Position numbers and translations under genes: made by a program. A stretch of 64,000 nucleotides of DNA from Rhizobium aethiopicum (GTDB taxonomy: Bacteria > Pseudomonadota > Alphaproteobacteria > Rhizobiales > Rhizobiaceae): NCBI RefSeq assembly GCF_014197535.1, contig NZ_JACIFV010000002.1, positions 186,001 to 250,000 on the forward strand, given 5' to 3'. The notes below the pieces were generated by a model. The model ran no database searches and had not been told where the DNA came from. It saw nothing but the letters and a program-made list of their open reading frames with translations. Below are positions 10,683 through 63,641 of the stretch, piece by piece. Numbering within the stretch: the first letter of the stretch is position 1; the number at the start of each line of letters is the position of its first letter.

Positions 10683-10804
10683 TCGTTCTCCGCCATTCCT
10701 GAAGAGCGTAGCAAGCTTAAGCTGTCTAAACCCGCACCCGCATCTGAGATGAAACATTGCCAGCGCGGACAAAGCACGTCGTGATAACGACATGCGAGAA
10801 ATAA

Positions 10805-10906
10805 AGAGCTAGCGTATCAGCGCGAAAAGCGGAATTCGATTTTCGGAAAGCGCGACACGAGAATTGCGAACGTAACAGCGTCCTTTGCGCGTCCGATAAG
10901 ACGCCC
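10805..10906 (-). repeat. Rhizobial dispersed intergenic repeat, copy B
   Basis: Read on the minus strand this gives GCGTCTTATCGGACGC, CAAAGGACGCTGTTACG, then GCGCTTTCCGAAAATCGAATTCCG and a tail ending TGATACGC. It matches copies A, C and D in order and spacing. It occupies most of the 330-base space between the pss operon end and the rapA end (10683-11013). The only other structure there is an imperfect inverted repeat around 10961-10992 past the rapA stop. Confidence 0.65.
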
Positions 10907-11013
10907 GTTAGTCAGTGATGCCAACGGCCAAATTTCGTGACGGTACTGGTTGATAACCGACAACGTCCGCCGCGTAAGCAGCGGGCGTTGCATCATAGAC
11001 GGTTTATCGTTGA

Positions 11014-11721: not shown

Positions 11722-11780
11722 CTGTGTCTCTCCTTGAAATTGATCTTCGCCGGTCACTTTTGACTTCGGCGAGCCGCATG

Positions 11781-11809
11781 ATTAAGATTATCTTAATACA
11801 TAGAGTCAA
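11781..11809 (-). promoter_or_regulatory. rapA promoter overlapped by a perfect palindrome
   Basis: On the minus strand TTGACT (11809-11804), a 17-base spacer and CTTAAT (11786-11781) give a start near 11774 and a 5' UTR of about 53 bases. The -10 and adjacent spacer lie inside a perfect 17-base palindrome at 11781-11797 (ATTAAGAT, T, ATCTTAAT), a good place for a repressor. Confidence 0.55.
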
Positions 11810-12014
11810 GCGTGTAGTTAACAACAGACAAGCACTTGAGAGTGTATTGATCGATAATTAAACGCGTGCAATGTGCGTAAGTCGATGAAAGTCATAAATA
11901 TTATAATTTTAACAATTAGTGATCGCCTACGTCGTGGCAATCTCTCTTGGATGATTCTTCGTACTGAGAAAATCGTTATTCTATGACAAATGCAGTAATG
12001 TTGTCCTGCGGTGT

Positions 12015-12040
12015 ATTACCCTGCAGGGCTATTGGGTAAT
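12015..12040. promoter_or_regulatory. Inverted repeat in the rapA/beta-helix divergent region
   Basis: ATTACCC (12015-12021) and GGGTAAT (12034-12040) are perfect 7-base arms separated by 12 bases. The site lies in the AT-rich 690-base region (11722-12410) between two divergent genes for probable PrsDE substrates. Possible regulator site; no promoter for the plus-strand gene was identified with confidence. Confidence 0.35.
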
Positions 12041-12410
12041 CATGACGGATTATTACGCGGAGTTGCAATGTCGTAGGACCCTATTACCTCTTGGTTGTAG
12101 TATATCGCCGAAATAAACGCCTCCGTAACCGCATATAGGTTTAGTTGGGGAACGTTGTGCTGCGCTGGAGCGGGGCATATGCCGGCTTCATCTTGCTCCG
12201 GATAACAGTGCGGTAGTGTGCCGAATCGAGGTAGAATGGGCGTGGGTTGGCTCTACAACCTTATCGCGATACAATATTTTGAGTACACTAAAATAATCAT
12301 GCTCAGAATGTAAGAATATTCCGAGATATCGCGCATTTTAGTGTTTCATTTTAGCAGCCGGAGAGATGTCCGCAGTTAGAAGGTCTTCCATAACCTCGGG
12401 AGATCGCAGC

Positions 12411-14030
12411 ATGACCGTCTATTACGTGAATTCAGTGACGGGATCCGATTATAACAGCGGAACCGGTGAGAGTTCAGCCTTTGCGACGTTGTCCGCTGTT
12501 GAAGCCTTGAAACTAAATCCTGGTGACAGCGTGTTGCTTGCTGCCGGGAGTGTATTTAACGAACAGTTCGACCTGAAATATTCCGGCACTGTCAGCGCTC
12601 CGATCACCATCGGCAGCTATGGCATCGGTGATGCGCCAGTCATTCACAGCAGCAATAACGGGATACACGGTTCCAAGGCTTCGAACATCATTGTCGAGAA
12701 CATCAAGATCGCCGATACTGGCGCCAACGCGATCTATGCCGGGAGTGTATCGAACTGGATCGTCCGCAACGTCGAGGTCTCGAATACCGGTTTGGCCGGA
12801 AAGGCCGGCTCGCTCAGCTTTCAAAGCAGCCAGAACATCACGATCGAGAATAGCACCCTGACCGGTGTCCATGCCGATGGCATTTGGATGGATAAGGTCA
12901 AGGGCGTCACCCTCGTCAACAATACAGTTACCAACAGTCAGGGGAGCGTGGCTGACGCCATTCAGCTCAACAACAGCAGCAATATCCTGATCAAGGACAA
13001 TCATCTCGAGCAGACGGAAACCAATAGCGCCAAGGGCGTCCTGGTGCTGATCCGGGCTCAAGATGCCGTGGTTGAGGGCAATACGCTTATCGGCGGCGGT
13101 TTCGGGCTGAGCGCTCAGGCGGGCACGAACATCGCCATCCATGACAATGACATCTCTGGATATGGCGGCTACAGCTGGTCGTACGGCATCGGCCTTGGCG
13201 ACTCCGGCGACGCGAAAAATTACGACATTAGCGGAAATTACCTGCACGACGGCGTCTACGGCGTTCTGGTCAGCGCTGTCGGCAATCCCGCCTATGTCCG
13301 CGAGAACATCATTGTCCACGACAATGTCTTCGACGACCTGACCGCGTCGGCACTGAAGGTCGACAGGTCTGCTTCGGGCTCCTTCTACGACAATGTCATC
13401 GATAGTTCGGTGTCGACGCTGACGATGCCCGCCACAATCGCTGCGCAGAACACGTTCTCCATCGGTGAAAACAAGACGCTCGAACAAGCGCAGGCCGAGC
13501 TTGACAGCGCAGCGGGCAGCGCGAGCGGCGACACGTCGTCGAGCAATGGGCAGACTCCTGTCGCACCGGTTTCCGAGCATGTGGAGGTGCCGGCGCCTCA
13601 GGTAGCTTCTCCGGCGCCTAGCGTGGAAACGCCGGCCGCGACCGTGCCTGCAGCGGTCGTTCCGAAAATTGTTGCGGTTCACGATAGCTTGAAGATTGCG
13701 GAAGATACCGGCAGTGCCTATCACGGAAATCTGCTTGATAACGACAATGCGAGTAACGGCACAATACTGCTGCGCCGCTTCGGGGACAACGCGGTGGACA
13801 AGCACGGCCTGACGCTGACCGGAAAATACGGCGTCATCCACATCGAAAGCGACGGCGATTATAGTTATACGGTCGATGCCACCAAACTCGCAGGCCTCAG
13901 CGGCAAAGTCAGTGAGTTCTTCCAATACAAAATCTCCGATGGCGCTTCCCATATCGATACCGACAGCTTGAGCGTGTCGATCAACGTCGACGCATTCCAT
14001 GGCAGTCACGCCTCGTACGTCCTGGCGTGA
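12411..14030 (+). CDS. Right-handed beta-helix protein with C-terminal Ra/cadherin-like domain
   Basis: A 539-aa protein. Residues about 5-340 are a parallel beta-helix of the pectate-lyase/mannuronan-epimerase type, with many N-I-x-I-x-x-N and N-x-V-x-x-S rungs. A Pro/Ala/Val-rich linker follows (about 385-430). Residues 425-539 repeat the domain found twice in RapA (GNLLDND, KYGVIHIESDGDYSYT, QYKISDG). No Sec signal; with prsD 480 bases downstream it is very likely a type I substrate that binds exopolysaccharide and cuts or modifies it. It sits where R. leguminosarum has plyA, but I cannot show it is that gene. ATG 12411 has GGGAG eight bases before it; ATG 12366 does not have a usable site. 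Confidence 0.78.
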   Translation: MTVYYVNSVTGSDYNSGTGESSAFATLSAVEALKLNPGDSVLLAAGSVFNEQFDLKYSGTVSAPITIGSYGIGDAPVIHSSNNGIHGSKASNIIVENIKIADTGANAIYAGSVSNWIVRNVEVSNTGLAGKAGSLSFQSSQNITIENSTLTGVHADGIWMDKVKGVTLVNNTVTNSQGSVADAIQLNNSSNILIKDNHLEQTETNSAKGVLVLIRAQDAVVEGNTLIGGGFGLSAQAGTNIAIHDNDISGYGGYSWSYGIGLGDSGDAKNYDISGNYLHDGVYGVLVSAVGNPAYVRENIIVHDNVFDDLTASALKVDRSASGSFYDNVIDSSVSTLTMPATIAAQNTFSIGENKTLEQAQAELDSAAGSASGDTSSSNGQTPVAPVSEHVEVPAPQVASPAPSVETPAATVPAAVVPKIVAVHDSLKIAEDTGSAYHGNLLDNDNASNGTILLRRFGDNAVDKHGLTLTGKYGVIHIESDGDYSYTVDATKLAGLSGKVSEFFQYKISDGASHIDTDSLSVSINVDAFHGSHASYVLA

Positions 14031-38882: not shown

Positions 38883-40103
38883 CTGACGGACCGGTCGATA
38901 TATTCCGACAGGATCATATCGCCGCGGGAAACTCTTTCCCGCGTCGAGCCTTTTTTAGCTCGGTTCGGTATAACAAGAGTTGCACGACATACCGGGCTTG
39001 ATGACGTCGGAATTCCCGTCTGGTGCGCCTATACTCCGAATTCGCGCTCAATCGTGATTGCTCAGGGGAAGGGTCTGACCGATATCGGCGCCAAAGTATC
39101 CACCGTCATGGAAGCCGTGGAACGGGCAGTTGCCGGCGAGCCTTTCGTCGATCTTGTCCGCAGCACCTCGTTCGGTCTGCAGGCGATGGGGCACAAGATC
39201 GATACGCTGAGCTGCCTGATCGCCATGCATAAACCCGATCTCGGGCCGGACGAGGAGACGGAATGGGTGGCCGGCATCAATATCCTCACCGGCGAGACGA
39301 TTCATATCCCTTTTGAAGCGGTGCTGCTCGACCGCACGCGCGATGCGCGATACTGGATGTCATCTGACGGCTTGGCATCGGGAAATAATATCGAGGAGGC
39401 CGTTTTCCACGGTGTGCTCGAGCGGATCGAGCGGGATGCGCATGTACTATGGCAGGTTGGCGCGGAAAGGGATCGTTATGCCGGCTGCGTAGACCCCCGC
39501 GGCTTTCAGAATGATGCACTGACCGGGTTGATCGACAAGATCGAAAAATCAGGATTGGCGCTCCGGCTCTTCGATATCACAAGCGACATCGCCATTCCCT
39601 GTTTCACCGCCATTCTGGGGCCTGGGGGTTCCGTTCCAGGCCAGCGGGATCGCCACGGCGGCAGCGACATTCGCCTTGTCGAGGTGACCGGCGGTACGGG
39701 GGCCCATCCGTCTCCCGTGCGCGCGGCCATCCGAGCGGTAACGGAAGCCGCGCAATCCAGACTCACCTATATCAGCGGAGCCAGGGACGATATTTCTCCC
39801 GCCACGTTTTCGAGATCCTTGCCGCCGCTGATGCGGCGAGCCTTCGACGCAGTTCCCGTCTCGCCGGCTGCCGGTCCTGTCCACCACCGAACGCCGGGAC
39901 ATCGGGATCTGGCGCATTTGCTGCAGCATGTGCTGGAGGCTTTGCGAGACAAAGGGATCGGTTCGGTCATCGCCGTACGCCTCAGCGACGACACGCTTCC
40001 TTTTGGCGTCGTCAAGGTGGTTATCCCCGAACTCGAAAATCCGGAAGGGCCGCGTGCTCGCCAGTTTGGAACAAGGGCGCTCGCGAGAGCGATAGGTTTT
40101 TGA
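38883..40103 (+). CDS. YcaO-domain cyclodehydratase/thioamidation enzyme
   Basis: About 406 aa if translated from CTG 38883; the frame is open from 38874. YcaO proteins use ATP to activate a peptide-backbone amide. ATP/Mg-binding segments are visible: QGKGLTDIGAKVSTVMEAVER and ASGNNIEEAVFHGVLERIERD. The family's usual N-terminal block (SPRETLSRVEPFLARFGITR, then TGLDDVGIPVWCAYTPNSRS) is encoded upstream of the first standard start, GTG 39054, so that start is too late. No ATG, GTG or TTG exists in frame before it. Candidates are ATT 38880, CTG 38883, or read-through of the TGA at 38871. The stop overlaps tfuA by four bases. Confidence 0.85.
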   Translation: MTDRSIYSDRIISPRETLSRVEPFLARFGITRVARHTGLDDVGIPVWCAYTPNSRSIVIAQGKGLTDIGAKVSTVMEAVERAVAGEPFVDLVRSTSFGLQAMGHKIDTLSCLIAMHKPDLGPDEETEWVAGINILTGETIHIPFEAVLLDRTRDARYWMSSDGLASGNNIEEAVFHGVLERIERDAHVLWQVGAERDRYAGCVDPRGFQNDALTGLIDKIEKSGLALRLFDITSDIAIPCFTAILGPGGSVPGQRDRHGGSDIRLVEVTGGTGAHPSPVRAAIRAVTEAAQSRLTYISGARDDISPATFSRSLPPLMRRAFDAVPVSPAAGPVHHRTPGHRDLAHLLQHVLEALRDKGIGSVIAVRLSDDTLPFGVVKVVIPELENPEGPRARQFGTRALARAIGF

Positions 40104-40807
40104 AGTTCATTTTCGCGGGTCCCAGTCTTCCCGACGCAGCCTCACTTGCCGGCGAGGGGATACGGGTCCTGCCGCCCGCTACGCAGGGCGATGTTCTGGC
40201 TGTGGTGGAACAGGGTGCCAATGTCATCGGCCTGATCGATGGCGGTTTCGAATACGCTGCACCGGTCTGGCATAAGGAAATTCTGCATGCTCTTTCGCTT
40301 GGCGTGGCGGTCCTCGGGGCGGCAAGCATGGGCGCGCTACGCGCTGCGGAATGTCATTCATTCGGGATGATCGGGGTCGGCCGCATTTTCGAAGACTATC
40401 GGACGGGTCGGCTGGTCGACGATGCCGCCGTTGCGCTCGTGCACGCGCCGAGCGCGCTGGGCGGCAAGCCGCTGACGATGCCGCTCGTCAATGTCAGCGC
40501 CACGCTCGATGCCATGGAAAGGAATGAGTTGCTCCCAGATGGGCTGCGCCAAGTCATCGAAGACGCCGCGAGCGCAATATTTTTCAAGAGGCGGACGTGG
40601 CGGGCAATCGTCGAGCAATGCGCTGACGTAGCCGAGCCGGATCGCCCGCACCTTCTGGCCACCCTCGTGTCGCATTCCGTTGATCAAAAACGCATCGATG
40701 CGCTGGAATTGCTGGAGGTGGTGCAGTCGACCGCCGATATTCGCGTGAATGCCGATTTGTCCTGGAAACTGCGCGAAACCTCGTTCTCCACACGGTCCGC
40801 ATTGTGA
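40100..40807 (+). CDS. tfuA: TfuA-family partner of YcaO
   Basis: A 235-aa TfuA protein: FIFAGPSLP at the N-terminus, IGLIDGGFE, LGAASMGALRAAEC and GVGRIFEDYRTG, all family hallmarks. TfuA was first found with the peptide antibiotic trifolitoxin of Rhizobium. In archaea and in thioamidated RiPPs it partners YcaO to install thioamides in a peptide backbone, delivering sulphur or helping hydrolysis. TTG 40100 overlaps the ycaO stop (TTGA), so translation is coupled and a two-protein complex is likely. No trifolitoxin-type precursor (TfxA) is recognised here. Confidence 0.9.
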   Translation: MKFIFAGPSLPDAASLAGEGIRVLPPATQGDVLAVVEQGANVIGLIDGGFEYAAPVWHKEILHALSLGVAVLGAASMGALRAAECHSFGMIGVGRIFEDYRTGRLVDDAAVALVHAPSALGGKPLTMPLVNVSATLDAMERNELLPDGLRQVIEDAASAIFFKRRTWRAIVEQCADVAEPDRPHLLATLVSHSVDQKRIDALELLEVVQSTADIRVNADLSWKLRETSFSTRSAL

Positions 40808-43037: not shown

Positions 43038-44147
43038 CTACCTTCGCGAGGTCGCAATGGACTCTCCGCAGCACCGGTCGATCTTCGATAAGCGCCGGAA
43101 CAAGGCCTTCGTCCGGAAGCGTGACCACCCGCCGACCAGCGGGATAAGGGGGTCTAATTCCTCGAATTTCTTAAAATACTTCTGCTTTGATTGCCTGACC
43201 GGCCGGACTTTGGCCAAAGCCCTGTTTGTGGCTCTGTTGGCTTTTGAGAAGATCAGTTTGATTACGACGGCCACAGCAAGCAGGGGGCTATGACGATAGA
43301 TGTGCCTAAGCGAGGTGGCGGCGCTGTGCCAATCTTTCAAAGCTGCAAATTTTGAGAATGCATACAGGTGAGCCGAGGCGTGGGCGCAGCTGACGACGAA
43401 AGCGGGAAGCTCCGGGTTGCGGGAGACACATTGCTCGGTCACTGCCAAAAGCGACCGCGCCATTCGGGACCTGTCGGCAGACATGGCTGCGGAATGAAGG
43501 CGATAGCCCACCAGACCGAGTGGCACAGCCTCGATCTTGAAATGCTCGGCGGTGCGGAGTTCGAAATCGAAGTCTTCGCATCCTCCAATTCCTCGATCGG
43601 CATAGCTCGGATCGTAGCCGCCGATTTTGTCTATGACGGCGCGGCGCACCATGAAGCCGCTGCCATTGCCGACAAAGCGGAAGACGAGGTGGCGAATGAG
43701 AATGGATTCCCGGGCGTTGAGCGACGAGCCGGACCTCGTGCAATATCCCTCGGAATCGACGAAACGGTGAAGGGCATATACTGCACCCCACGCGTCCGGC
43801 AGGGGATGGAGCGCTGACAGCATCCTTTCGACATAAGTGGGATGCCAGAGATCGTCTGCGTCGATGAAGGCTATATAGCTAGACCTGGATGCCTCGATCC
43901 CGGCATTGCGCGCCGCGGCTACACCACGATTTTCGGTCGACAGGATCGTGATCCTCGGATCAGCTGCGGCGAACTCGCGACAGATCGATGCGGTATCATC
44001 GGTGGAGCCGTCGTCCACGACGATGATTTCGAGTGCCGAATGGGTCTGGTCGACAACCGATCGAAGTGTGGCGGCGATGAACTCTTCGGCATTGTAGGCA
44101 GGGATGACGACTGCCACCGTCAATCCGGATAGAGGCTCAGCCGCCAT
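43038..44147 (-). CDS. GT2 glycosyltransferase
   Basis: A 369-aa GT-A enzyme: AVVIPAYNAEEFIAATLRSV, VVDDGSTDDTASI, GVAAARNAGIEA and the metal site FIDADDLWHP. It is clearly a paralogue of the GT2 at 45897-46973 over the first 250 residues (GYDPSYADRGIGGCEDFDF against GYDSALRDQGAEGCEDLKL). The C-terminal part is hydrophobic in places. Start 44147 (GGATGGG before it) overlaps the end of the ABC transporter gene; 44159 is possible. Last gene of the second glycan operon. Confidence 0.85.
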   Translation of the reverse strand: MAAEPLSGLTVAVVIPAYNAEEFIAATLRSVVDQTHSALEIIVVDDGSTDDTASICREFAAADPRITILSTENRGVAAARNAGIEASRSSYIAFIDADDLWHPTYVERMLSALHPLPDAWGAVYALHRFVDSEGYCTRSGSSLNARESILIRHLVFRFVGNGSGFMVRRAVIDKIGGYDPSYADRGIGGCEDFDFELRTAEHFKIEAVPLGLVGYRLHSAAMSADRSRMARSLLAVTEQCVSRNPELPAFVVSCAHASAHLYAFSKFAALKDWHSAATSLRHIYRHSPLLAVAVVIKLIFSKANRATNRALAKVRPVRQSKQKYFKKFEELDPLIPLVGGWSRFRTKALFRRLSKIDRCCGESIATSRR

Positions 44148-45900
44148 AGAGCAACCCATCCGCTGTTGTGGCCGGACGCAGGTCGATCCGGTTCTTCATC
44201 AACCTTGCGACCGACGGGCGATGGCTGACGACGATCAGGGTCCGGCCGTCATATTCCCTGAGCAGGAGGGAGAGCACGCGCCCCTCCGTCTCCTCGTCGA
44301 GTGCGCTGGTCGCTTCGTCCAGGAGCAATATGTCGGGCCGGCCGGCCAGCGCCCGCGCCAGACCGATGCGCTGTCGTTGCCCACCCGAAAGCCGGATCGC
44401 TTCGTCGCCCAGCCATTCGTCGAAGCCGTAGGGCAGATTCTCGATGAATTCGGTGGCGCAGGCCATATCTGCCGCCCAGCGGACATCCTCCTCAAGGATG
44501 TCGCGACGGAAGCGGATATTGTCGAGGACGGAGCCATCCATAAGCTCGACGTCTTGGCCCGAGACCGCGAGCAGGCGCAGCCAGCTGGATCGCTCGATAG
44601 TCGAGAGGTCCTTGCCATCGATCGTGATCCGGCCTTCGGTCGGCTGAATAAGGTCGAGAAGCATGTTGATGATCGTCGTTTTGCCGGAGCCGCTGGGTCC
44701 GGTCAGAGCCGTGGTCTCGCCTGCCCTGATCGAGAAGCTGGCATGACGCACGGCAGGCATTCTGGCCTCTTCGTAGAAGAAGGATACATCGTGGAAAACG
44801 ATCTCCTGTTTTAGATGTCGCAGTTCCTCTCCGCCTGCAGTTTTTCTGGCGTCGTCCTGTTCCGCGATCAGCGCGAGCACGTTTTGCAGTGAGGCTTCGA
44901 TTTCATGCAAGCGCAGCAGCTGGGAATCGAATTGCTTGATATGTGGCTGGAGCCTGTAAAGAAGTATCGTGGCAGACAGGGCGGCCCGAAAATCGACCGG
45001 CAGGACCTGCGAGGACAGGATGATCGTCAGGATCACCCCGAATGTCAGCGTTTCGCTCAGAAGCGACGTTGCTGCCCCCATCCGATCCGAACGGCGCCAG
45101 GTTTCCCCCACTGTCTTGGACAAGGTTTCGAAAATACCTTTGTGGTCGTCTTCCAGACCGAAGCTCTTCACCGCCTTTAAGGTCTGCAATGTGGTCCAGC
45201 TCAGATGGGTCAATTCTTCCAGAGCTGAAAGACTGGCGGCGCCAAGACGGCGATAGGCAGCTGCAAACAAGCCGAGGCTGAGGTTATGGACGACGCCGAA
45301 CATCACCGCGAGCACAGCAATCGGCCATGCCATTACGAGCATTCCGGCCCCGAAAATGATGATGGTCCCGAGACTGATTCCCAGGCGCACAAGGCCGGTA
45401 TGAGCTGAGGCCACGGAATAGGATTCGGTGGCGATGACATTGATCAGATCGCTGCGCTCATAGCGTTGAAATCGCTGGAAGGGGATCGTCAGAATCTTTG
45501 CATAAAGACGGTGACGAATACTCTCGCTGATCTGATGGCTTACGGTGCTTGCGATGATGTCGTTGACGAAGCCCAGAATGATCCTCAGGATGATCGCGCA
45601 GATCAGCACGGCGACTAGCATCGACTTCGTGATGGAAGATTCCAATCCGCCAAAATATGCCGGTAGCCAGGCGACGGACCCGGAAGCAGGGCTTTGTTGG
45701 CTGAGGGCAAAAACGAGGCTGACCAGCAAGGTTATCCCCACCATTTCCGATAGCCCGGTCAGGATACCGATGACGATCAGGACGGAGGTCTTCAACCGGA
45801 GCGAGGGAACGAGCTCCAGAAGTTCGCGAAAACGCGCTGCGACAATAACGTTGAAGGCGCCCCACGACCTGCGGAGAACGGGTTTCCGTAGCGTCATCAT
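44137..45900 (-). CDS. PglK/MsbA-like ABC half-transporter, probable glycan flippase
   Basis: A 587-aa fused membrane-ATPase protein. Six helices cover about residues 25-300. The nucleotide-binding domain has Walker A GPSGSGKTT, Q-loop SGQDVELMDG, signature LSGGQRQRIGLARAL, Walker B ILLLDEATSALD and the His switch VSHRPS. Closest in type to PglK, which flips lipid-linked oligosaccharides, or to lipid exporters; there is no Wzx or Wzy in this locus. ATG 45900 overlaps the preceding GT2 stop (ATGA). It is flanked by two paralogous GT2 genes. Confidence 0.87.
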   Translation of the reverse strand: MMTLRKPVLRRSWGAFNVIVAARFRELLELVPSLRLKTSVLIVIGILTGLSEMVGITLLVSLVFALSQQSPASGSVAWLPAYFGGLESSITKSMLVAVLICAIILRIILGFVNDIIASTVSHQISESIRHRLYAKILTIPFQRFQRYERSDLINVIATESYSVASAHTGLVRLGISLGTIIIFGAGMLVMAWPIAVLAVMFGVVHNLSLGLFAAAYRRLGAASLSALEELTHLSWTTLQTLKAVKSFGLEDDHKGIFETLSKTVGETWRRSDRMGAATSLLSETLTFGVILTIILSSQVLPVDFRAALSATILLYRLQPHIKQFDSQLLRLHEIEASLQNVLALIAEQDDARKTAGGEELRHLKQEIVFHDVSFFYEEARMPAVRHASFSIRAGETTALTGPSGSGKTTIINMLLDLIQPTEGRITIDGKDLSTIERSSWLRLLAVSGQDVELMDGSVLDNIRFRRDILEEDVRWAADMACATEFIENLPYGFDEWLGDEAIRLSGGQRQRIGLARALAGRPDILLLDEATSALDEETEGRVLSLLLREYDGRTLIVVSHRPSVARLMKNRIDLRPATTADGLLYGG

Positions 45901-46973
45901 AAATGATCCATCCGGGACTTGATGAGCTCGCCTGTCCGTATCGTTGGCGTGGCTGCGACAAGGTCGTAAAACGACGTGCCGCTGATGGGGAGCGCCACGC
46001 TTTTCGGAGCCGCCCCTTTCGGCCACGCGTGCGACCTACGACGTATCCGTTTCAACAGTTTCCTGCGCTGCCGCTTCGCTTGGCGCCACAGATGCCTGAC
46101 AGCTTGGCCGACAAGCCTTGACGGGAATCTCCTGACAAGGAGAGGCGCCACTTTCCTGACCTGCCCGTAGTTGCCGCCGGCAAACGCCTGCTTGAAATAC
46201 CAGCACGCCGTATGGAATTCCGCCCGGGTGGCGGCGGCGGCAAGATCGGGATGGCGCCGCTTCACGTCTGCCATCACCAGAGCGTGGGATTTCAGCATGC
46301 GCGAGGCGTTGCTCGACATGTTGCCTGCGGTAAAACGATAACCGGTCAGGAAATCGGGAGCCACTGCAAAGGGTAGTCTTTCAGCCAATGCGAGATAGAG
46401 CTTCAGGTCCTCGCATCCCTCGGCTCCCTGATCACGCAGGGCAGAATCATAACCCCCGCATGCCAGGACTTCCGCCCGCGGCATGAGGGGGGTGCTGCCG
46501 TTGCCGATGAAATTTTCCCCGACCAATATTTCGAAGACATCGCCCTCATAGAGCACGGGACCCGAATGGCTGAAAATCACGTCGTTCCCGTCGATTGCCG
46601 CGTACCAGTTGTAGGCGACGCCGTGGCCTGTCGACAATTTCCCGAGTGCGCGGACTTGCATCTCGATTTTTAGAGGGTGCCAGAGGTCATCGGCATCGAT
46701 CGGTGCGATGTAGCTGCCGCGGGCCTCTTCTATACCGTAGTTGCGGGCACGGGCGACGCCGCCGTTTTGCTGGCGAAGGACACGAACGCGCGGGTCAGAA
46801 AGGCGATATTCTGTCGCCAGTTCGAATGTTTCGTCCCGCGATCCATCGTCCACGACGAGGATCTCGAGGTGTTCATAGGTTTGGGCCGAGACGCTTCGCA
46901 GCGTTTGCACGAGGGTCGCTTCCGCATTGTACGCGGGAATGATGACGGTCACCAAAAGAGGGTCAATGATCAT
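45897..46973 (-). CDS. GT2 glycosyltransferase
   Basis: A 358-aa GT-A enzyme with VTVIIPAYNAEATLVQTLRS, VVDDGSRDETFEL, GVARARNYGIEEA and PIDADDLWHP. The C-terminal half is basic (KRQRRKLLKRIRRRSH), suggesting membrane surface binding. It begins four bases after the stop of the big fusion gene and runs into the ABC transporter gene by four bases. Paralogue of the GT2 at 43038-44147. Confidence 0.86.
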   Translation of the reverse strand: MIIDPLLVTVIIPAYNAEATLVQTLRSVSAQTYEHLEILVVDDGSRDETFELATEYRLSDPRVRVLRQQNGGVARARNYGIEEARGSYIAPIDADDLWHPLKIEMQVRALGKLSTGHGVAYNWYAAIDGNDVIFSHSGPVLYEGDVFEILVGENFIGNGSTPLMPRAEVLACGGYDSALRDQGAEGCEDLKLYLALAERLPFAVAPDFLTGYRFTAGNMSSNASRMLKSHALVMADVKRRHPDLAAAATRAEFHTACWYFKQAFAGGNYGQVRKVAPLLVRRFPSRLVGQAVRHLWRQAKRQRRKLLKRIRRRSHAWPKGAAPKSVALPISGTSFYDLVAATPTIRTGELIKSRMDHL

Positions 46974-46977
46974 GGCA

Positions 46978-49900
46978 TTATCCGATAAAGGCGTTGGGAT
47001 GGCCCATCAGTTCGGCAAACGCCGTGATGGGTAAATCGCCGCGTACCTCAAGGCGCGGGAGTGACAGCAGCTTGTCCGAAAAGCCCGCTTTTGCCGGCCT
47101 GGTGGTGAAGCCAATTTGATATCCCGCCTCGGCCAGAATTCCGGGAACACGGAAATCGGTGCAGCCGAAGGGGAGAGCGATAGATGTCGTGGCCGCGCCG
47201 AGCCGGTTCTCCAGCGTCTTGCGAGAATGAACCGCTTCGGCCAATAGCATGGCGTTATCCAGCGCACTCGCCGGCGTGTGGGTTTCCAGATGAGACCCAA
47301 ATCGGATGCCCTTTCGATGGAGATCCTCAATGTCGTTCCAAGACATCAGAGGGGCTGGCTCACCGTAAGCGGCATCCCAATCCGATCGGCCGCCCACTTT
47401 GTCCGTCACGACGAAGACGTCGGCGCTGAAGCCGTTCTCTACAAGGATGGGATAGGCTTCGGTAAAAAAATCGAGATAGGCATCATCGAAGGTCAGGACG
47501 ACCGGCCGCCCCTGTATCGGCTTTCCCACCTGAAGCAGATGGGCCAGCGCATCGGACGTCAGCCCATAGTAGCCCTGCCGCCGGAGAAACTGCATGTGCT
47601 GGCGGAACATCTCCGGCGCGATCCGGAAACGCCGCAGCCGATCGGGACCTTCGCGCGCGATTCTGTGATACATCAACACCGGGATCGAGGTCGTCACTTC
47701 GTTCGACCACGCCGCCACTCGTTCGACACCGGCCGGTCCCCAGATGATGTTCTTGGCCACCTCCGTGTCCAATGGGACACCGTGCCGTTCAAACCGTATT
47801 GTGTGTACGGACGTTTCACGCTTGCGGAACCGATGAATGGCGTAAAGCTCGGTCTCGATCGTTTCTTCCAGGCTAAGGTCCGGCAGGTTCGAAAAGACTT
47901 TCCTGATGGTGCCGACACCGAACGGATTGTCCCAATCGAAACCGGTCCTTTCGGGCTCGTCTCGCCGGAGATGGGCGTGAGCGGTAATCAGACAGCCGCC
48001 CGGCTTCAGTGCTGCGGCAATCTTTCGGCAGACCCGCTCCAAGACCTGTTCGTCATCCATGTAATAGAGGACTTCCGAGCAGACGATCAGGTCCTGTCCG
48101 CCAGGAATGTCGTCGCCTGCGAAGTCCAGGACACGAAACTCGGCATTCCCCAACTCTCGGCACCGCTCGGATGCTCTTTCGATCGCACGACGCGAGATGT
48201 CCGTTGCCGTCAGCGTCCCGACCTTTTGCGCAAGCTTGGCGGAGAATATCCCCTCCGCACAGGCAAGTTCCAATGCCTTGCCTATCCCTTCCGGGACAAG
48301 GCCCAGCGTCTGCTCGTATTTGACCTGTTCGTAGATCGACACGTAGTTCCATGGGTCGGGATGCTCAAAGACCCGTTCCCAATATTCCTCTTTGGAAGCG
48401 GCCTCTGACAAAAGGGCTTCCTTTCCCGTTTTTTTTCCGCGGCGCTCGGCTAACACCGCGCCATGCAAGCGCTCATTCTGCCGATCTGCCTTCGAAAGGT
48501 GCAGGTCATCCGTTTCCCCGTCGCCTGCCAGAGATTTTATAAGAGCTGCGTCGCGCGTTGATTGGACAAGGCGGCCGAGGCGTCCCCGCCGTCGTCCTCC
48601 CCGACGAAGAATCCCAAGGAAGCCTCTATAGTTACGCAAGGTTTCGAATAACCAGTGGCGCGCATAGGCGAAGGTCCTTGGCGTGGGCAGCCGGCCGCCT
48701 GCATGCATGTCCCGGACGATCAGGCGAACCAATGCGCCGACCGACAGATCTCCCCATAGCGGCCCCACGTGGGCACCGATATGTTTCTGTCCAGACGAAA
48801 GCTGCAGTACCAGCGTATCGGCTTCGACGGCCTTGGTAATCTTCGCGAGCTTGTTGACGTCGACGCCCACAGTCTGGACGCGTCCGAGCTTAAAAGGACG
48901 CGAGACGGCTTCTGATGAAAGCCGCCAGGCAAGAAGCTGCTCTGTCTTTCGTGCGGTTCCGGCCAGCGAATGGCTTTCGATGAGGGCGAGGAGCCGCGCG
49001 ACTGCCGGTGCCCACGAGTCCATCAGGTCGATCAGGGCGCCAGTATTCTCAACCGATTGGCCCGTCTGCAACCCATGAAGGATGGCCACCGCCATCATGT
49101 CTTCGTGGCCCGAGCCATCGGGAAATTCCGGCAGAAGCTCGGCCAGGTCCTTGGGATCGGTTTCCGCACAAAGATGCATCGACGCGATCCAAATGAAGAT
49201 GCGAAGCTGGCTAAGGGCCGGCTTCGGCCAAGCGTCGTCCTCGCCCTGCGTCGGCAAGCCCCGCTCAACTTGCAAGGCCCGCGCCCTTTCCGTCACGACA
49301 ATCGCGTCCCGCATCATCCTGATCGGATCGGACGACAGAGAGCCGGCCTTCATGCGATAGAAGGCCAGGCATTTGTCCACCCGCTGGAATCGAGCCCCGG
49401 CGAACGCCATGCGAAGCCAGAGATCCCAGTCCTCGCAGGTTTGTAATGTGACATCCATGCCGCCTAGTTCCGTAAAAAGGCGCTTGGGAAAGACTGCCGT
49501 ATGAATGGCCAGAGCGCAAATTGACGAAAATTGTTGGATTGCACGATCTCCGGTAAGATCATGCGCCTGCTCGATCTTCTGCATCCGGCCGTCGGCCGTG
49601 ACGCGGCGATAGCTGCAATGGGCGATTAGTGGCTGAGACTGGTTGCTGGCGATCGGCAGCATGCTTTCGTTGAAGGCGGGATCCAGCCAGTCGTCGGCAT
49701 CGAGCATGCAGAGGAGAGGCGCAGCGGCAAGCTGAGCGGCTGCATTGCGTGCGGCGGCGGCACCGGCATTCGGTTGACGGTAAAGGGTAATCCGCCCGTC
49801 CGCGTTGGCAAGGCTTTCAAGGACCTCCCAAGTCCCGTCGGTCGAGCCGTCATCCACCACGACCGCCTGCCAGTTCGATATCGTCTGATTTTGCAGGCTG

Positions 49901-49980
49901 CCCAGACAATCCGACAGCGTACCGGCGGCATTATAGGCCGGGATGAGAAAGGAGATCGCAGGTCTCGACGCCGTCACCAT
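46978..49980 (-). CDS. Three-domain fusion: GT2, NodS-like methyltransferase, NodB-like deacetylase
   Basis: A 1000-aa protein from ATG 49980, which overlaps the upstream GT2 stop by seven bases. Residues about 9-240: GT-A domain (SFLIPAYNAAGTL, VVDDGSTDGTWEV, MLDADDWLDP). Residues about 530-730: SAM methyltransferase of NodS type, with PWNYVSIYEQVKYEQTL, ALELACAEGIFSAKLA and SEVLYYMDDE. Residues about 760-1000: polysaccharide deacetylase with TFDDAY and the metal site SHLETH. All catalytic motifs look intact. It would add an N-acetylated sugar, remove the acetyl and methylate the product, but the substrate is not known and this is not a nod locus. Confidence 0.88.
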   Translation of the reverse strand: MVTASRPAISFLIPAYNAAGTLSDCLGSLQNQTISNWQAVVVDDGSTDGTWEVLESLANADGRITLYRQPNAGAAAARNAAAQLAAAPLLCMLDADDWLDPAFNESMLPIASNQSQPLIAHCSYRRVTADGRMQKIEQAHDLTGDRAIQQFSSICALAIHTAVFPKRLFTELGGMDVTLQTCEDWDLWLRMAFAGARFQRVDKCLAFYRMKAGSLSSDPIRMMRDAIVVTERARALQVERGLPTQGEDDAWPKPALSQLRIFIWIASMHLCAETDPKDLAELLPEFPDGSGHEDMMAVAILHGLQTGQSVENTGALIDLMDSWAPAVARLLALIESHSLAGTARKTEQLLAWRLSSEAVSRPFKLGRVQTVGVDVNKLAKITKAVEADTLVLQLSSGQKHIGAHVGPLWGDLSVGALVRLIVRDMHAGGRLPTPRTFAYARHWLFETLRNYRGFLGILRRGGRRRGRLGRLVQSTRDAALIKSLAGDGETDDLHLSKADRQNERLHGAVLAERRGKKTGKEALLSEAASKEEYWERVFEHPDPWNYVSIYEQVKYEQTLGLVPEGIGKALELACAEGIFSAKLAQKVGTLTATDISRRAIERASERCRELGNAEFRVLDFAGDDIPGGQDLIVCSEVLYYMDDEQVLERVCRKIAAALKPGGCLITAHAHLRRDEPERTGFDWDNPFGVGTIRKVFSNLPDLSLEETIETELYAIHRFRKRETSVHTIRFERHGVPLDTEVAKNIIWGPAGVERVAAWSNEVTTSIPVLMYHRIAREGPDRLRRFRIAPEMFRQHMQFLRRQGYYGLTSDALAHLLQVGKPIQGRPVVLTFDDAYLDFFTEAYPILVENGFSADVFVVTDKVGGRSDWDAAYGEPAPLMSWNDIEDLHRKGIRFGSHLETHTPASALDNAMLLAEAVHSRKTLENRLGAATTSIALPFGCTDFRVPGILAEAGYQIGFTTRPAKAGFSDKLLSLPRLEVRGDLPITAFAELMGHPNAFIG

Positions 49981-51152
49981 GGCTGCATTTTCCAGCGGCC
50001 GAGAAGATAAAATGCGCCCTGCAGGCTCCCCAGAACCTCTTCCTTCAGAAAGAAGTTGTCCGAAGTCGCTCCGCGTTCGAGCCGCTTCGCGAACCTTTTG
50101 AGATGATACCAGGGGAGCGACATTAGCATGCGGCGCAGATTGCCCAGCTTGCCGGTGTTCTGGTACTGGATCAGCAGCGCAGCGACATGGCCTTTCATAT
50201 ATTGATGGATCTGTTTTGCCAGCCCTTCCATGTCCTTGCGGTGAAAATGCCACGAAACCGCGGTCGGCTCGTAGCGGCAAGTATGGCCATGATGGAGAAG
50301 CCGATCCCAGAACTCGGAGTCGTCCGAACACCCAGCCGCCCCCGCGCCGAGTCGGACGTCGAATAATCCGCATTCATCGAACACTTTGCGACGAAACGCC
50401 TGGCTTGCTCCTGCGCCGACCATCGACATGGGATTTTTATGCCGCTTATGCCGGCGATAGAAGTGCCGATCGAAGTCCCTGCGCCGATAGCCTCGGCCGA
50501 ACCCCCAGTGTCTTTCGAATATCAGCTGCGCGGGCGTGGAAAGCTCTCCGGGAAGGACGAGGCCGGTGACGCACCCGATTTCGGGCTGGTCGAACCCCTT
50601 CATCAGGTTCTCGAGCCATCGTTCGTGAAGCACGACATCGTCGTCCGTGAAGGCGACGAATTCCGTCGTTGCCGCGCGCACGGCAGCGTTTCGGGCATAG
50701 TCGAGGCCGATCCTATCCTCACGGACATAGGTGGCGCCGGCTGCCTCTGCGACACGACGCGTGCCATCGCCGGCCGATGCGTTGTCGACAACGACGATCT
50801 CGACCGGCGGAAGAGATTGTCTGGGGATGGATGCCAAGCAGCGGGCCAGCTCGTCGGGCCGGTCCTTGGTGCAGATCAGAATACTGACGTCGTGATTTTT
50901 GAGCGGGATTTGCGCGACCTGATGCGCATGCTCGACCGTCTCGGGCTGCACGACGCGCAAGGCGAGTGCGGTCGTGTTCTCTGGCTTGTCGACATAGGCC
51001 TGTCCTACGGGAAGGCCATCCGACAGAAAGATCACCAACCCCTCGGAAAGGGCGGATGAGCCAGTATCGACCTCGGCCGAGGCGAGATCCAGATAGCGAA
51101 TTGGTACGGGAAAGCGGATGTCCTTCAGATCAGCCGGAATTGGTTCTCGCAT
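49974..51152 (-). CDS. GT2 glycosyltransferase with N-terminal extension
   Basis: A 392-aa protein. The first 85 residues are an extension without catalytic motifs. The GT-A domain follows: VSILICTKDRPDELARCL, VVDNASAGDGT, GLDYARNAAVRAA and TDDDVVLHERWL. The C-terminal part includes FWDRLLHHGHTCRYEP and ends GRWKMQPW. ATG 51152 has a GAGAGAG purine run. Its stop lies inside the start of the fusion gene, so the two are coupled. UDP-xylose synthase, 140 bases upstream, may supply its donor. Confidence 0.85.
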   Translation of the reverse strand: MREPIPADLKDIRFPVPIRYLDLASAEVDTGSSALSEGLVIFLSDGLPVGQAYVDKPENTTALALRVVQPETVEHAHQVAQIPLKNHDVSILICTKDRPDELARCLASIPRQSLPPVEIVVVDNASAGDGTRRVAEAAGATYVREDRIGLDYARNAAVRAATTEFVAFTDDDVVLHERWLENLMKGFDQPEIGCVTGLVLPGELSTPAQLIFERHWGFGRGYRRRDFDRHFYRRHKRHKNPMSMVGAGASQAFRRKVFDECGLFDVRLGAGAAGCSDDSEFWDRLLHHGHTCRYEPTAVSWHFHRKDMEGLAKQIHQYMKGHVAALLIQYQNTGKLGNLRRMLMSLPWYHLKRFAKRLERGATSDNFFLKEEVLGSLQGAFYLLGRWKMQPW

Positions 51153-51290
51153 CAACGCTCTCTCGATCGCACCCTTGAACCTTGCGCATCGGCCCTAGAT
51201 CGGGCTTATCTGACGGCACTATGCGCCGGTTCAGAATATCGGCGCCCTTCGCGCGTTCGAAAGGCCGCGCGCCGCCCCAAGCCGTCAGCA

Positions 51291-52271
51291 TCAACGATGC
51301 GCGCTGCGCAGCTGTGATGATTGCTTCTCGGCCTTCATTTTTTCCCTGAACCATTCGAGCGTCAGGGCCACGCCTTGCTCGTAACTGATCTTACAGGACC
51401 ACTCGGGCATGACGTAGTTCGCATTGCTGAGGTCCGGCCGCCGGTTGGTGGGATCCTGCGGAGGGGACGGCTCGAAGACGATCGGTACGCCGCCGACGAG
51501 ACGGGAGACATATTGCGCGACCTCGAGAACCGAGATTTCGCGATCGTTGCCGACGTTCAGAGGCCCCTTATAGTCGGTTTGGTTTACCCAGAAATAACGC
51601 GCGAAGCCGTCGACGATATCGTCGACATAACCCCAGCTGCGGGACTGCAGACCATCGCCGAATACGGTGATCGGGCGGCCCGAGAGCGCCTGGGTGATGA
51701 AGTTGGAGACCGCGCGCCCATCGTCGGCGCGGGTGCGGGGGCCATAAATGTTGAAGGGACGGACGACCTTGACGTCGAGCCCCTGGGTGCGCTGCATCTC
51801 GAACAGCAGCGATTCCGTGCAGCGCTTGCTCTCGTCGTAGGACGAGCGTGGCCCTGTACAGTCGACCTGGCCCTTGTAGGATTCGGGCTGCGGCGAGACC
51901 AGCGGGTCGCCATAGACTTCGGAAGACGAGGTAAAGCCGAAACGACCGCCCTTTTTCAGGAGATCGAGAAGCCGCATTGCCCCGAGAAGATTGGCGGAAA
52001 TCGTCCGCTTCGGCTCCTTCATATACCACGGTGGCGATGCGGGAGAGGCAAGGTGGTAGATTTCGTCGAATTTATCGGAGGTCTGTAAGGTTTCGACATC
52101 CGATTTCACGAAGTGAAAACGCGGATCCTTGATGTGCTCGATGTTTTCGAGAAGTCCGGTCCAAAGATTGTCAACAACTACGAGTTTCTGAACGTCAGTC
52201 CGGAGCAGAAGTCGGTCGCACAAATGCGACCCGATGAAACCAGCTCCGCCCGAAATCAATACAGTTTTCAT
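51291..52271 (-). CDS. uxs: UDP-glucuronate decarboxylase (UDP-xylose synthase)
   Basis: A 326-aa extended SDR. NAD-binding GGAGFIG (8-14), the SSSEVYGD strand, catalytic SYDESKR (Tyr and Lys), and RPFNIYGPR, YVDDIVDGF motifs mark it as UXS. It makes UDP-xylose and CO2 from the UDP-glucuronate produced by the dehydrogenase at 1.4-2.8 kb. ATG 52271 lies nine bases after AGGGG; a second ATG at 52277 is too close. Together with a GH10 enzyme in the other glycan operon it hints at a xylose-containing glycan. First gene of the second glycan locus. Confidence 0.9.
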   Translation of the reverse strand: MKTVLISGGAGFIGSHLCDRLLLRTDVQKLVVVDNLWTGLLENIEHIKDPRFHFVKSDVETLQTSDKFDEIYHLASPASPPWYMKEPKRTISANLLGAMRLLDLLKKGGRFGFTSSSEVYGDPLVSPQPESYKGQVDCTGPRSSYDESKRCTESLLFEMQRTQGLDVKVVRPFNIYGPRTRADDGRAVSNFITQALSGRPITVFGDGLQSRSWGYVDDIVDGFARYFWVNQTDYKGPLNVGNDREISVLEVAQYVSRLVGGVPIVFEPSPPQDPTNRRPDLSNANYVMPEWSCKISYEQGVALTLEWFREKMKAEKQSSQLRSAHR

Positions 52272-52647
52272 TTGCATTGCCCCTGATGACTTCAAGTAAG
52301 GTAATTGTCTATTAGCATTCCCTATAAGGACTGGCAATTGCTTAGAAAAAGTCTAAGAAATACTCGCGCGTTAATCTTAATTATTAATTTGCAGTACTTA
52401 AGGTAGTATCACCATGTGCACTGCGGGGCGAAGTTGCGGACCCTCGGACATATGCTGCAGCCGGCTCGACCACAGCATTCTCCATCGGCCGTTGCGGGTT
52501 CTCTAGCACACGAGCGCAGTCGCGCATCGGTCTAAAGTCCGACTCGAGACGAGTACTTTGATTCAGAGCGTTCTCCTCCGTGTGCCTCAAGGCCGACGCC
52601 TAAACAGCCTGCTCCAGCGTCCATCAAGCCGACTGCGCCCATTTCGA
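52272..52647. other. Intergenic region between uxs and ampC
   Basis: No gene. A perfect inverted repeat CTTAGA-AAAAG-TCTAAG (52341-52357) lies about 75 bases upstream of the uxs start and could be part of its control region. The ampC side has no clear terminator. Confidence 0.45.
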
Positions 52648-62267: not shown

Positions 62268-63641
62268 TCAACCCTCCGGGAGCGACGAAAACCGGCTGGC
62301 GTCGAACGGACCTGTGGCGGCGACCGGAACGGGATTCTCGTCTGAAGCCGCGACATTCGCCTCGCGATGAACCGTGCGGGGAGAAAGGCGAGGCGCGCTC
62401 AAGCCGATCGCCGCGCCGGGAGAATGCAGCGCCCATTGCATCAGCGCCGCTTCGGACGTCGATCCAAGGAAATCTGCTTCTTCCCAGGACGCGGTCATTG
62501 GCAGGGAGGCGATCATGTCGGCGCCCTGCCTGGAGGTCTGCGGTGCGGCAATGACGGGATGGAAGCGTGCGTGAACCGGCAATGCGGGCGGCCGTCTCTC
62601 CGGAAGGGCTGTAATCGGGCCGATCGAGGCAGTCTCCAGCCTGTCGTCCGCGCCCGCCTCCTGCGCAACGGCTGATGGGCGCATCACCGGTATCGGAATC
62701 GGGAGAGATGAAAGATCGGGAGCGGAGCCTTTGTCATCCCGCTCGACCGCGCCGGTCTGTTGCGCCAGCGCATTCAAGGCCCGGCTTTTCGGCGCCGGCA
62801 GCAGCGCCGTCACCAGCTTGCTGTCTGTGGTGCCGCCGCTCGGCGTGTTCGACACTGCCACGTCTTCGTCTCCTCCCGCGGTGCCGGCGATCTCGATCGA
62901 GGTGGAGCTGACGCGTTTCCTGTAGTTCGCAACCGCCTGGTTATATCCCGGCAGCGGCCGGCCATCGGCCGGAAGATGCATCGTCTTCCCATTCGGGAAT
63001 ATGCGCGCGAGTTCCTGCCGGGACATGCGGGGCCAGGCCCGGACATTGCCGACGTCCAGATGCACGAAGGGCGATCCCGAGGTCGGATAATATCCGACAC
63101 CGCCGACCTGCATCTGCATGGCAATGGCACGCAGCGTCGCAAGCTTGACGCCGGGAACGTAGAAATCCATCGCCTTGCCCAGCATGTGCTGGCTCTTCTT
63201 GGCGACTCCGGTGCTGCGCGAACGGTTGCGCAGCATGTTGTTGGTGGCGGGGGAACGATAGGCGGAGACGACGTGGATATAATCCTTGCCGCCGCTCTTC
63301 TTATACACCTCCCAGACCAGGTCGAGCAGCCGCAGATCCATCCGGGTCGGCTCATTCCTTCGCCAGTCGCGCAGAAACCGGTTGATCTGGGCAAGGCCTC
63401 TGGAATCGAACTTTCCATCCCGCTTGTAGGTAATCGTCGCCCTTTCGCCCGTATGGGTAAAGAACAGCTTCAGCGCCCGATCTTCCGCCGAGGCGAGGGA
63501 TGCAGAACCGACAAGTGCCGGCAGCGCAAACAGAGCCGGCAGAATGGTCTGCGCTGCGAAGCGTTTAGCACGCGACAGGAGCGCGGCAATTCCGCCCAAG
63601 GCTCCGCCCGACAAACCCTGTGAATACTCCAACACGAACAA
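62268..63641 (-). CDS. DUF882/peptidase M15-like exported protein with long C-terminal tail
   Basis: A 457-aa protein with an N-terminal signal or membrane segment (about residues 28-52). The conserved domain (about 55-235) has the M15-like zinc site: SQHMLGKAMDF (His and Asp) and FVHLDVG (His), as in YcbK murein peptidases. The 200-residue tail is low complexity and probably disordered. Likely a periplasmic cell-wall amidase or endopeptidase. TTG 63641 is the assumed start; there is no strong ribosome site. Confidence 0.75.
   Translation of the reverse strand: MFVLEYSQGLSGGALGGIAALLSRAKRFAAQTILPALFALPALVGSASLASAEDRALKLFFTHTGERATITYKRDGKFDSRGLAQINRFLRDWRRNEPTRMDLRLLDLVWEVYKKSGGKDYIHVVSAYRSPATNNMLRNRSRSTGVAKKSQHMLGKAMDFYVPGVKLATLRAIAMQMQVGGVGYYPTSGSPFVHLDVGNVRAWPRMSRQELARIFPNGKTMHLPADGRPLPGYNQAVANYRKRVSSTSIEIAGTAGGDEDVAVSNTPSGGTTDSKLVTALLPAPKSRALNALAQQTGAVERDDKGSAPDLSSLPIPIPVMRPSAVAQEAGADDRLETASIGPITALPERRPPALPVHARFHPVIAAPQTSRQGADMIASLPMTASWEEADFLGSTSEAALMQWALHSPGAAIGLSAPRLSPRTVHREANVAASDENPVPVAATGPFDASRFSSLPEG

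Follow-up and report, generated by a model that had tools for sequence, protein, structure and literature searches.

What does a single protein do that joins a glycosyltransferase, a NodS-like methyltransferase and a polysaccharide deacetylase in one chain, and does it mean that the nodulation enzymes are put to use elsewhere? Such a protein, here called TRI, is encoded in a 64,000 nucleotide stretch of Rhizobium aethiopicum DNA (contig NZ_JACIFV010000002.1, positions 186,001 to 250,000; the whole stretch is called the window). An initial annotation of this DNA suggested that TRI may make an N-methylated amino sugar for a surface glycan and may reflect an ancestral or parallel use of the nodulation enzyme set. 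From sequence comparison we favor, with a probability of about 0.6, the reading that TRI adds an N-acetylhexosamine, deacetylates it and N-methylates the bared amine before the glycan is exported, a role of this residue as a chain cap being plausible in one (type B) of the two kinds of gene cassette that carry TRI. The protein lies in swappable glycan-export gene sets of soil bacteria and cyanobacteria and probably has one step in common with Nod factor synthesis.

TRI is a single uninterrupted frame of 1000 amino acids in the window's list of open reading frames (ORFs). The longest ORF variant opens at 50373, likewise ends at 46978 and has 1131 amino acids; the ATG at 49980 is supported as the true start because it overlaps the stop codon of GTa, the upstream glycosyltransferase gene, and because the alignment with Rhizobium homologues begins there. 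Pfam finds three domains over their curated cut-offs, Glycos_transf_2 (residues 10–163), NodS (532–669) and Polysacc_deac_1 (823–956), and the motifs PWNYVSIYEQ, TFDDAY and SHLETH are all present in the translation, bearing out the initial annotation of one intact frame with GT2, NodS-like methyltransferase (MT) and carbohydrate esterase family 4 (CE4) domains. When the whole protein is compared with NCBIfam, no model among the best 25 of 29 exceeds its cut-off. The CE4 domain has both the TFDD motif and the His-His metal site that are characteristic of CE4 enzymes, by the motif definitions in the accessible part of PMC6415152; its first metal-site histidine is followed by leucine, versus Ser/Thr in the consensus given there, and A-L/A-P-F/Y and LPR[L/I]E stand at the presumed positions of canonical motifs 3 (RxPY) and 5 (I(V/I)LxHD), respectively.

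A scan of genome contigs confirmed 146 TRI relatives, of which 80 loci were kept; the counts given throughout derive from samples and depend on tblastn queries whose reach was limited. Alignment A2 has 55 rows, the window protein and 54 of the 80 loci, having omitted L132 (at a contig edge), L140 and L143 (no glycosyltransferase (GT) domain) and another 23 loci, the last only to lower the number of Rhizobium and Mesorhizobium rows. GT residues D94, D97, E183 and D186, MT residues P543, W544, E551, K554, E571, G577 and D594, and CE4 residues D832, D833, H897 and H901 are invariant in all 55 full-length proteins, from Rhizobium to cyanobacteria, and GT residues D43, D44 and D96 are kept in 53, 54 and 53 of them. 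The checked catalytic residues are in place, and no frameshift splits the gene. The Rhizobium group consists of 33 loci (L064–L096, four of them titled just "Rhizobiales bacterium"). Mean identity of the window protein to the 33 aligned rows outside this group is 53% for MT, 43% for CE4, 37% for GT and 15.6% for the middle region (residues 241–525), which makes the methyl and deacetyl domains the most fixed; variability is highest in the middle region. The ratios of nonsynonymous to synonymous substitution (dN/dS) against L068, an 80% identical orthologue, are 0.13 (GT), 0.30 (middle), 0.08 (MT) and 0.12 (CE4), and all three catalytic domains are thus under purifying selection. A type A copy is present in R. 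johnstonii 3841 at 3,822,527–3,825,526 of NC_008380.1. The corresponding values against the R. johnstonii copy (0.17, 0.31, 0.12 and 0.14) are near saturation (dS 1.3–1.8), and those against a 98% identical orthologue (0.04, 0.48, 0.31 and 0.51) reflect so few changes (dS 0.01–0.04) that they are uninformative. We considered that TRI might be a frameshift product or pseudogene and rejected this because of its intact frame, its conserved homologues and the dN/dS of 0.08–0.13 of the catalytic domains in the 80% comparison.

The window gene lies in an operon with the order EPI, GTa, TRI, GTb, ABC, GTc, tightly packed from GTa to GTc. In all 33 Rhizobium-group loci, for which mostly 10 kb of DNA on each side is stored, GTa, GTb, ABC and GTc surround TRI, and EPI is usually present as well (31/33). 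On an annotated R. leguminosarum plasmid the same six genes follow one another as in the window, which shows that the operon need not be chromosomal. The ABC gene encodes a one-chain ATP-binding cassette exporter whose true start is probably near 45897, and whose top NCBIfam matches are HepA/MsbA-type models, under their cut-offs.

A second cassette occupies the same slot in other Rhizobium strains. A search of 148 genomes of the genus with TRI at E ≤1e-60 (five candidates scored per genome) found it in 60 and not in the other 88; of the 60, 48 are type A like the window (60–100% identity covering 998 or more of the 1000 residues, window included) and 12 type B (39–40% identity, frames of 1004–1022 amino acids). 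Each of the 60 has one match at this threshold, so no genome shows types A and B together. Type B TRI sits between GTz and a Wzm-Wzt-GTx-GTy block in 12/12 genomes, and in 11 of these the type B set fills the interval from EPI to the TfuA-YcaO gene pair, as the type A set does in the window (the contig of the twelfth being too short to show it); types A and B are alternative cassettes in one Rhizobium slot. Genes for Wzm and Wzt also adjoin TRI in Novosphingobium (L131) and in the cyanobacterium Scytolyngbya (L138). A Pfam scan for the sugar-binding C-terminal domain Wzt_C covered 3 of the 14 TRI-linked Wzt loci and was positive in all three (type B L053, E 1.5e-19; L131, 1.7e-20; L138, 5.4e-19), and the remaining 11 type B Wzt proteins are tblastn matches of 92–99% over their full length. 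Wzm/Wzt with such a domain, a feature of ABC-dependent chain-terminator clusters, is thus seen in type B and elsewhere beside TRI (Wzt_C at each of the three loci scanned) and is absent from the window operon.

The AlphaFold2 model of TRI, built from alignment A2, has a mean predicted local distance difference test score (pLDDT) of 85.9 and a predicted TM score of 0.73, and its domains were compared with solved enzymes by VIA-align. The CE4 domain is closest to PplD (6dq3; Z 29.8, root-mean-square deviation (rmsd) 2.3, 222 residues), followed by a Bacillus enzyme (4v33, Z 28.2), IcaB (4wcj, 27.2) and PgaB (4f9d, 25.4); the MT domain matches NodS (3ofk; Z 25.0, rmsd 2.2, 187 residues, 28% identity); and the GT domain matches the chondroitin polymerase K4CP (2z86, Z 26.9), with TarS, TarP and RmlT among its further matches. 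In the whole model the part of the middle region up to about residue 339 aligns with RmlT, TarP and TarS chains. The middle region, modelled separately (mean pLDDT 73.6, partly low-confidence), has no Foldseek match in the PDB at E ≤0.001, from which we make no claim of a new fold. The highest 19-residue hydropathy in TRI is 1.39, which does not indicate a membrane span and fits a soluble protein.

Among the three domains only MT is Nod-like, and GT and CE4 resemble other polysaccharide enzymes. NodS is the nearest solved structure to MT by sequence (3ofj, E 2.7e-14) as well as by fold, and MT has a class I S-adenosylmethionine (SAM) fold with the NodS-type N-terminal signature; D542, P543, W544, E551, E571, G577 and D594 are common to TRI and NodS, and P543, W544 and E551 are present in every row of three groups (20 TRI, 8 NodS and 13 others). 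The best NCBIfam family for MT is indeed NodS (NF041650), at 75.4 bits and under the 300-bit cut-off. No NodB is present among the six NCBIfam families that match CE4 at E ≤10 (PgaB is highest at 74 bits, and CE4 is under every cut-off), and no NodC (TIGR04242, cut-off 550 bits) among the best 25 of 27 families matching GT, down to E 0.025, where TuaG/EpsD-like families lead. In pairwise comparison with one Bradyrhizobium nod operon the E values are 4e-22 for NodS, 2e-7 for NodC and 0.004 for NodB. Genome-wide searches, which covered NodC and PF05401 and not NodA or NodB, found no NodC over its cut-off in the source genome and TRI as the sole PF05401 match, hence no separate NodS. An unrooted MT tree of 50 rows places the 20 TRI domains in one clade (support 99/96), the 8 NodS in another (100/100) and 12 MTs linked to PIG-L deacetylases inside one 15-row group (96/90); no outgroup was included, and its deeper order is weakened by several long branches (L155, L156, L157, L161 and L163). 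The idea that TRI is the ancestor of NodS was rejected, since their MT clades are separate and NodS is never nested within TRI in this tree. The proposed use of the nodulation enzyme set is therefore not upheld, nor is an ancestral position shown; a parallel use of one step, deacetylation followed by N-methylation, remains reasonable.

NodS-like MTs also keep company with deacetylases outside TRI. A survey of plasmids gave 146 matching records, of which 60 were listed and nine loci with neither NodS nor TRI were opened (the Komagataeibacter record was picked knowing that PIG-L was there, the other eight for spread). A deacetylase is near the MT in 9/9: PIG-L in Komagataeibacter, three Deinococcus (one with a gene between), two Novosphingobium, Acinetobacter and Comamonas, and CE4 in Rubrobacter, with one gene between. 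A class sample of 385 evenly taken genomes gave 19 matches at E ≤1e-8 in 15 genomes (2 TRI, 1 NodS and 16 other NodS-like MTs), and a deacetylase adjoins five of the 16 (4 PIG-L, 1 CE4). PIG-L and CE4 are unrelated folds, and that NodS-like MTs accompany both points to the freed amine as the common element. By this analogy N-methylation by the TRI MT domain is likely, and the N-methylated amino sugar of the initial annotation gains support, by association only, from the NodS-like MT, the deacetylase neighbours and the glycan operon with its exporter.

We therefore picture TRI, with the reservations below, as a putative soluble enzyme that would carry out three steps of surface-glycan assembly in the cytoplasm. 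The GT2 domain would add an N-acetylhexosamine to a growing, probably lipid-linked, glycan; the CE4 domain would then strip the acetyl group from that residue; the NodS-like domain would methylate the bared amine with SAM as donor; and the N-methyl-hexosamine glycan would leave through the ABC transporter of the same cassette. In type B this residue could plausibly be a non-reducing-end cap recognised by Wzt_C. In Klebsiella an exporter C-terminal module binds the terminal epitope and only terminated chains are exported, according to the accessible text of PMC11231755, and NodB deacetylates the non-reducing end residue (PMC6415152, same part as above). These parallels suggest a cap for type B; for type A, where the exporter lacks a module of this kind, a cap is no more than possible. 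The broader proposal, that TRI is a self-contained chain-capping enzyme which ends a cytoplasmic glycan with an N-methyl-hexosamine, and that this cap serves as an export ticket through Wzt_C in type B and through the one-chain exporter in type A, we put forward tentatively and consider doubtful; if true, deacetylate-then-N-methylate end chemistry would serve Nod factors and a far wider range of bacterial surface glycans.

Several observations weigh against the three-step reading or its cap. No glycan structure is linked to the cluster. The type A exporter, window included, is one chain without Wzt_C. Among 47 loci from beyond the Rhizobium group, 34 (30 of these titled Mesorhizobium) have no GTa, GTb or ABC homologue beside TRI. 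PF05401, the Pfam NodS model, is not specific: 6 of 14 control genomes have a match over its cut-off. No deacetylase was detectable by the tblastn queries used at 11 of the 16 NodS-like MTs of the class sample; NodB lies within the stretch shown in only one of three NodS loci opened, therefore true NodS need not adjoin its deacetylase. Finally, the AlphaFold2 model has no helix longer than 24 residues, and no long coiled coil of the chain-terminator type is evident in it, no coiled-coil predictor having been used.

Some of these points feed alternative explanations. The same chemistry could take place inside a repeat unit or on a short lipid-linked oligosaccharide, which would replace the cap alone; the one-chain MsbA/HepA-like exporter and four GT2 domains of type A fit a short oligosaccharide, and the model has no obvious coiled-coil ruler, but Wzm/Wzt are present in 12/12 type B loci, Wzt_C is present in the three TRI-linked Wzt scanned, and in the part of PMC11231755 cited above such a module accompanies terminated chains in Klebsiella. 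We regard this as a serious contender, somewhat short of an even chance. A different chemistry, in which MT is an O-methyltransferase, CE4 acts on another residue and the fusion merely holds three glycan enzymes together, seems unlikely. Class I MTs are versatile and their motifs give no direct evidence of what is methylated, and GT and MT modules occur in one protein elsewhere (KpO7 ORF6; PMC11231755, in part); however, MT is nearest NodS, and the frequent PIG-L or CE4 neighbours of its relatives suggest that the bared amine matters.

The remaining two explanations give the cluster another product. One, that the cluster glycosylates the product of the YcaO-TfuA pair next to it, a thioamide peptide of the ribosomally synthesized and post-translationally modified (RiPP) kind, is improbable. 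The pair adjoins the slot in 11/12 type B loci (the twelfth contig being short), YcaO is in the stored DNA of 19/33 type A loci, and a genome-mining study (PMC8120280, accessible part) describes ABC transporters and glycosyltransferases as frequent in the dominant TfuA families of proteobacteria, Rhizobium included. The pair is, however, on the opposite strand from TRI. It was found neither in the stored DNA of the other type A loci (e.g. L067–L073) nor in that of any of the 47 loci from beyond the Rhizobium group, so TRI operons exist without YcaO-TfuA nearby. Least probable of all, and by our estimate very much so, is that TRI produces a symbiotic signal resembling Nod factor, or that it is the ancestor of the Nod enzymes. 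The similarity to NodS and the many carriers in legume-symbiont genera speak for it; against it are the lack of NodC over the cut-off and of a separate NodS in the genome, the lack of an acyltransferase among the operon genes scanned, GT and CE4 domains that are not NodC and NodB, the separate MT clades, and carriers among Methylococcaceae and cyanobacteria.

TRI can be compared with several known systems. NodS (3ofj/3ofk) has the same MT fold, DPW/E and SAM-site residues and works after the deacetylase NodB; it differs in that TRI MT reaches 75 of the 300 bits required, forms a separate clade, is fused and lies outside a nod cluster. PplD, IcaB, PgaB and Bacillus CE4 enzymes have the CE4 fold, TFDD and the two metal-site histidines in common with TRI, whose CE4 is, unlike theirs, fused to GT and MT and under the NCBIfam cut-offs. 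Chain terminators (WbdD of O9a and KpO7 ORF6) also unite a methyltransferase with a second modifying enzyme in one protein, KpO7 ORF6 having GT modules too (PMC11231755, as above), and ABC-dependent O-antigen terminator systems, like type B, have Wzm/Wzt with a C-terminal sugar-binding domain. These terminators combine a kinase with a methyltransferase, whereas TRI combines a deacetylase with a putative N-methyltransferase; their coiled-coil ruler is not seen in TRI, and type A uses a different exporter. The fusion itself is already catalogued: the NCBI Prokaryotic Genome Annotation Pipeline (PGAP) gives the name "trifunctional glycosyltransferase/class I SAM-dependent methyltransferase/polysaccharide deacetylase" to proteins on R. 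leguminosarum, Gloeothece and Sulfitobacter plasmid records in RefSeq, which have the architecture of TRI (in R. leguminosarum also its gene order) and bear a name only, with no function given. A literature search with the combined terms of this name found no paper, and among the matches listed there was no functional paper on the fusion or on an N-methyl amino-sugar pathway; subscription papers were outside its scope and absence is unproven. What this analysis adds is how far the Nod comparison holds, the frequent association of the MT family with deacetylases, the conservation of the cassette and the existence of an alternative exporter.

N-methylated amino sugar chemistry is mainly familiar from Nod factors. 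N-methylated dideoxy amino sugars have reportedly been found in R. leguminosarum lipopolysaccharide, which a literature search did not confirm, and no part of the argument draws on this. If the three-step reading is right, a single enzyme equips a surface glycan with an amino sugar that is N-methylated and still basic, and nodulation's NodS step is a single branch within a broad family of glycan modifiers. The A and B cassettes in one slot would then be a simple natural system for studying how a modified chain end selects the exporter and how surface antigens are exchanged in soil bacteria. Hypotheses of function would also follow for NodS-like genes beside PIG-L in Deinococcus, Acinetobacter, Novosphingobium and others.

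Table 1. TRI, its domains and motifs, and the neighbouring genes (positions in the window)
Feature	Position	Strand	Evidence
YcaO, RiPP-type pair with TfuA, beyond slot	39054–40103	+	PF02624 E 1.4e-62
TfuA, RiPP-type pair with YcaO, beyond slot	40100–40807	+	PF07812 E 1.4e-40
GTc, GT2 glycosyltransferase at operon end	43038–44159	-	Pfam; present in 33/33 loci L064–L096
ABC, one-chain exporter (longest ORF)	44137–46026	-	PF00664 and PF00005
GTb, GT2 glycosyltransferase directly downstream of TRI	45897–46973	-	Pfam; adjacent in 33/33 loci L064–L096
TRI, GT2/NodS-like methyltransferase/CE4 deacetylase fusion	46978–49980	-	ORF, Pfam, homologues, AlphaFold2
CE4 deacetylase domain, residues 763–982	47035–47694	-	PF01522 E 2.5e-16; 6dq3 PplD Z 29.8
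CE4 metal-site motif SHLETH, residues 896–901	47278–47295	-	H897, H901 in 55/55
CE4 motif 1 TFDD, residues 830–833	47482–47493	-	D832, D833 in 55/55
NodS-like SAM methyltransferase (MT) domain, residues 530–722	47815–48393	-	PF05401 E 1.5e-17; 3ofk Z 25.0
PWNYVSIYEQVKY stretch, residues 543–555	48316–48354	-	Partly common to NodS and deacetylase-linked methyltransferases
Middle region, residues 236–529, variable; low-confidence linker 491–527	48394–49275	-	
GT2 (GT-A) domain, residues 5–235	49276–49968	-	PF00535 E 3.1e-28; 2z86 Z 26.9
GTa, GT2 glycosyltransferase directly upstream of TRI	49974–51155	-	Pfam; adjacent in 33/33 loci L064–L096
EPI, NAD-dependent epimerase/dehydratase	51291–52337	-	PF01370 E 6.6e-49; 31/33 type A, 11/12 type B loci

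Outside the Rhizobium group, GTa, GTb and ABC homologues were found by script on the same strand as TRI in 7 of the 47 loci: Methylococcaceae L097, Synechococcus L098, Bradyrhizobium L099–L101 and L133, and Mesorhizobium L137. Neoroseomonas L136 is an eighth when read by eye, the script having measured from a partial TRI hit. A strict operon rule for TRI was rejected because of the 34 loci without these homologues, three of which have other exporter genes nearby (Wzm/Wzt in L131 and L138, and an ABC gene on the opposite strand in L128). A solitary TRI is seen in L113 and a further 28 loci, of which 27 are titled Mesorhizobium, with conserved non-glycan neighbours, namely a redoxin (27/28), a cyclase-AAA-TPR protein of about 1170 amino acids (28/28) and an OmpA-family protein (14/28), which we could not fit to the glycan model. 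In Mesorhizobium L140 and L143 (about 9275–11458) the middle region, MT and CE4 are present with no recognisable GT domain upstream.

Two further arrangements of NodS-like MTs were met. In L170 (contig G159:C84, 4899–7313), the one CE4 case of the class sample, a hydrophobic N-terminal part that reads as flippase-like is fused to a NodS-like MT and a separate CE4 gene is next, an alternative packing of the same steps as in TRI. A set of acyl-CoA dehydrogenase, PIG-L and NodS-like MT genes, mostly with an adjoining glycosyltransferase gene, recurs in Komagataeibacter, Deinococcus, Novosphingobium, Acinetobacter and Comamonas (L145–L147, L185, L186, L188 and L189), and the Acinetobacter and Comamonas loci of this set also contain trehalose synthesis genes.

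We note that in one type B locus (L052, genome G007, 10654–13691) TRI is split into two overlapping frames and its neighbours match at full length; the break is either natural or an assembly error. The TfuA families in the accessible part of PMC8120280 perhaps include the window's neighbourhood. A DUF882 (Peptidase_M15_2) gene lies farther away in the window at 62268–63641 on the reverse strand, and a homologue of it is also present near the operon in R. leguminosarum loci.

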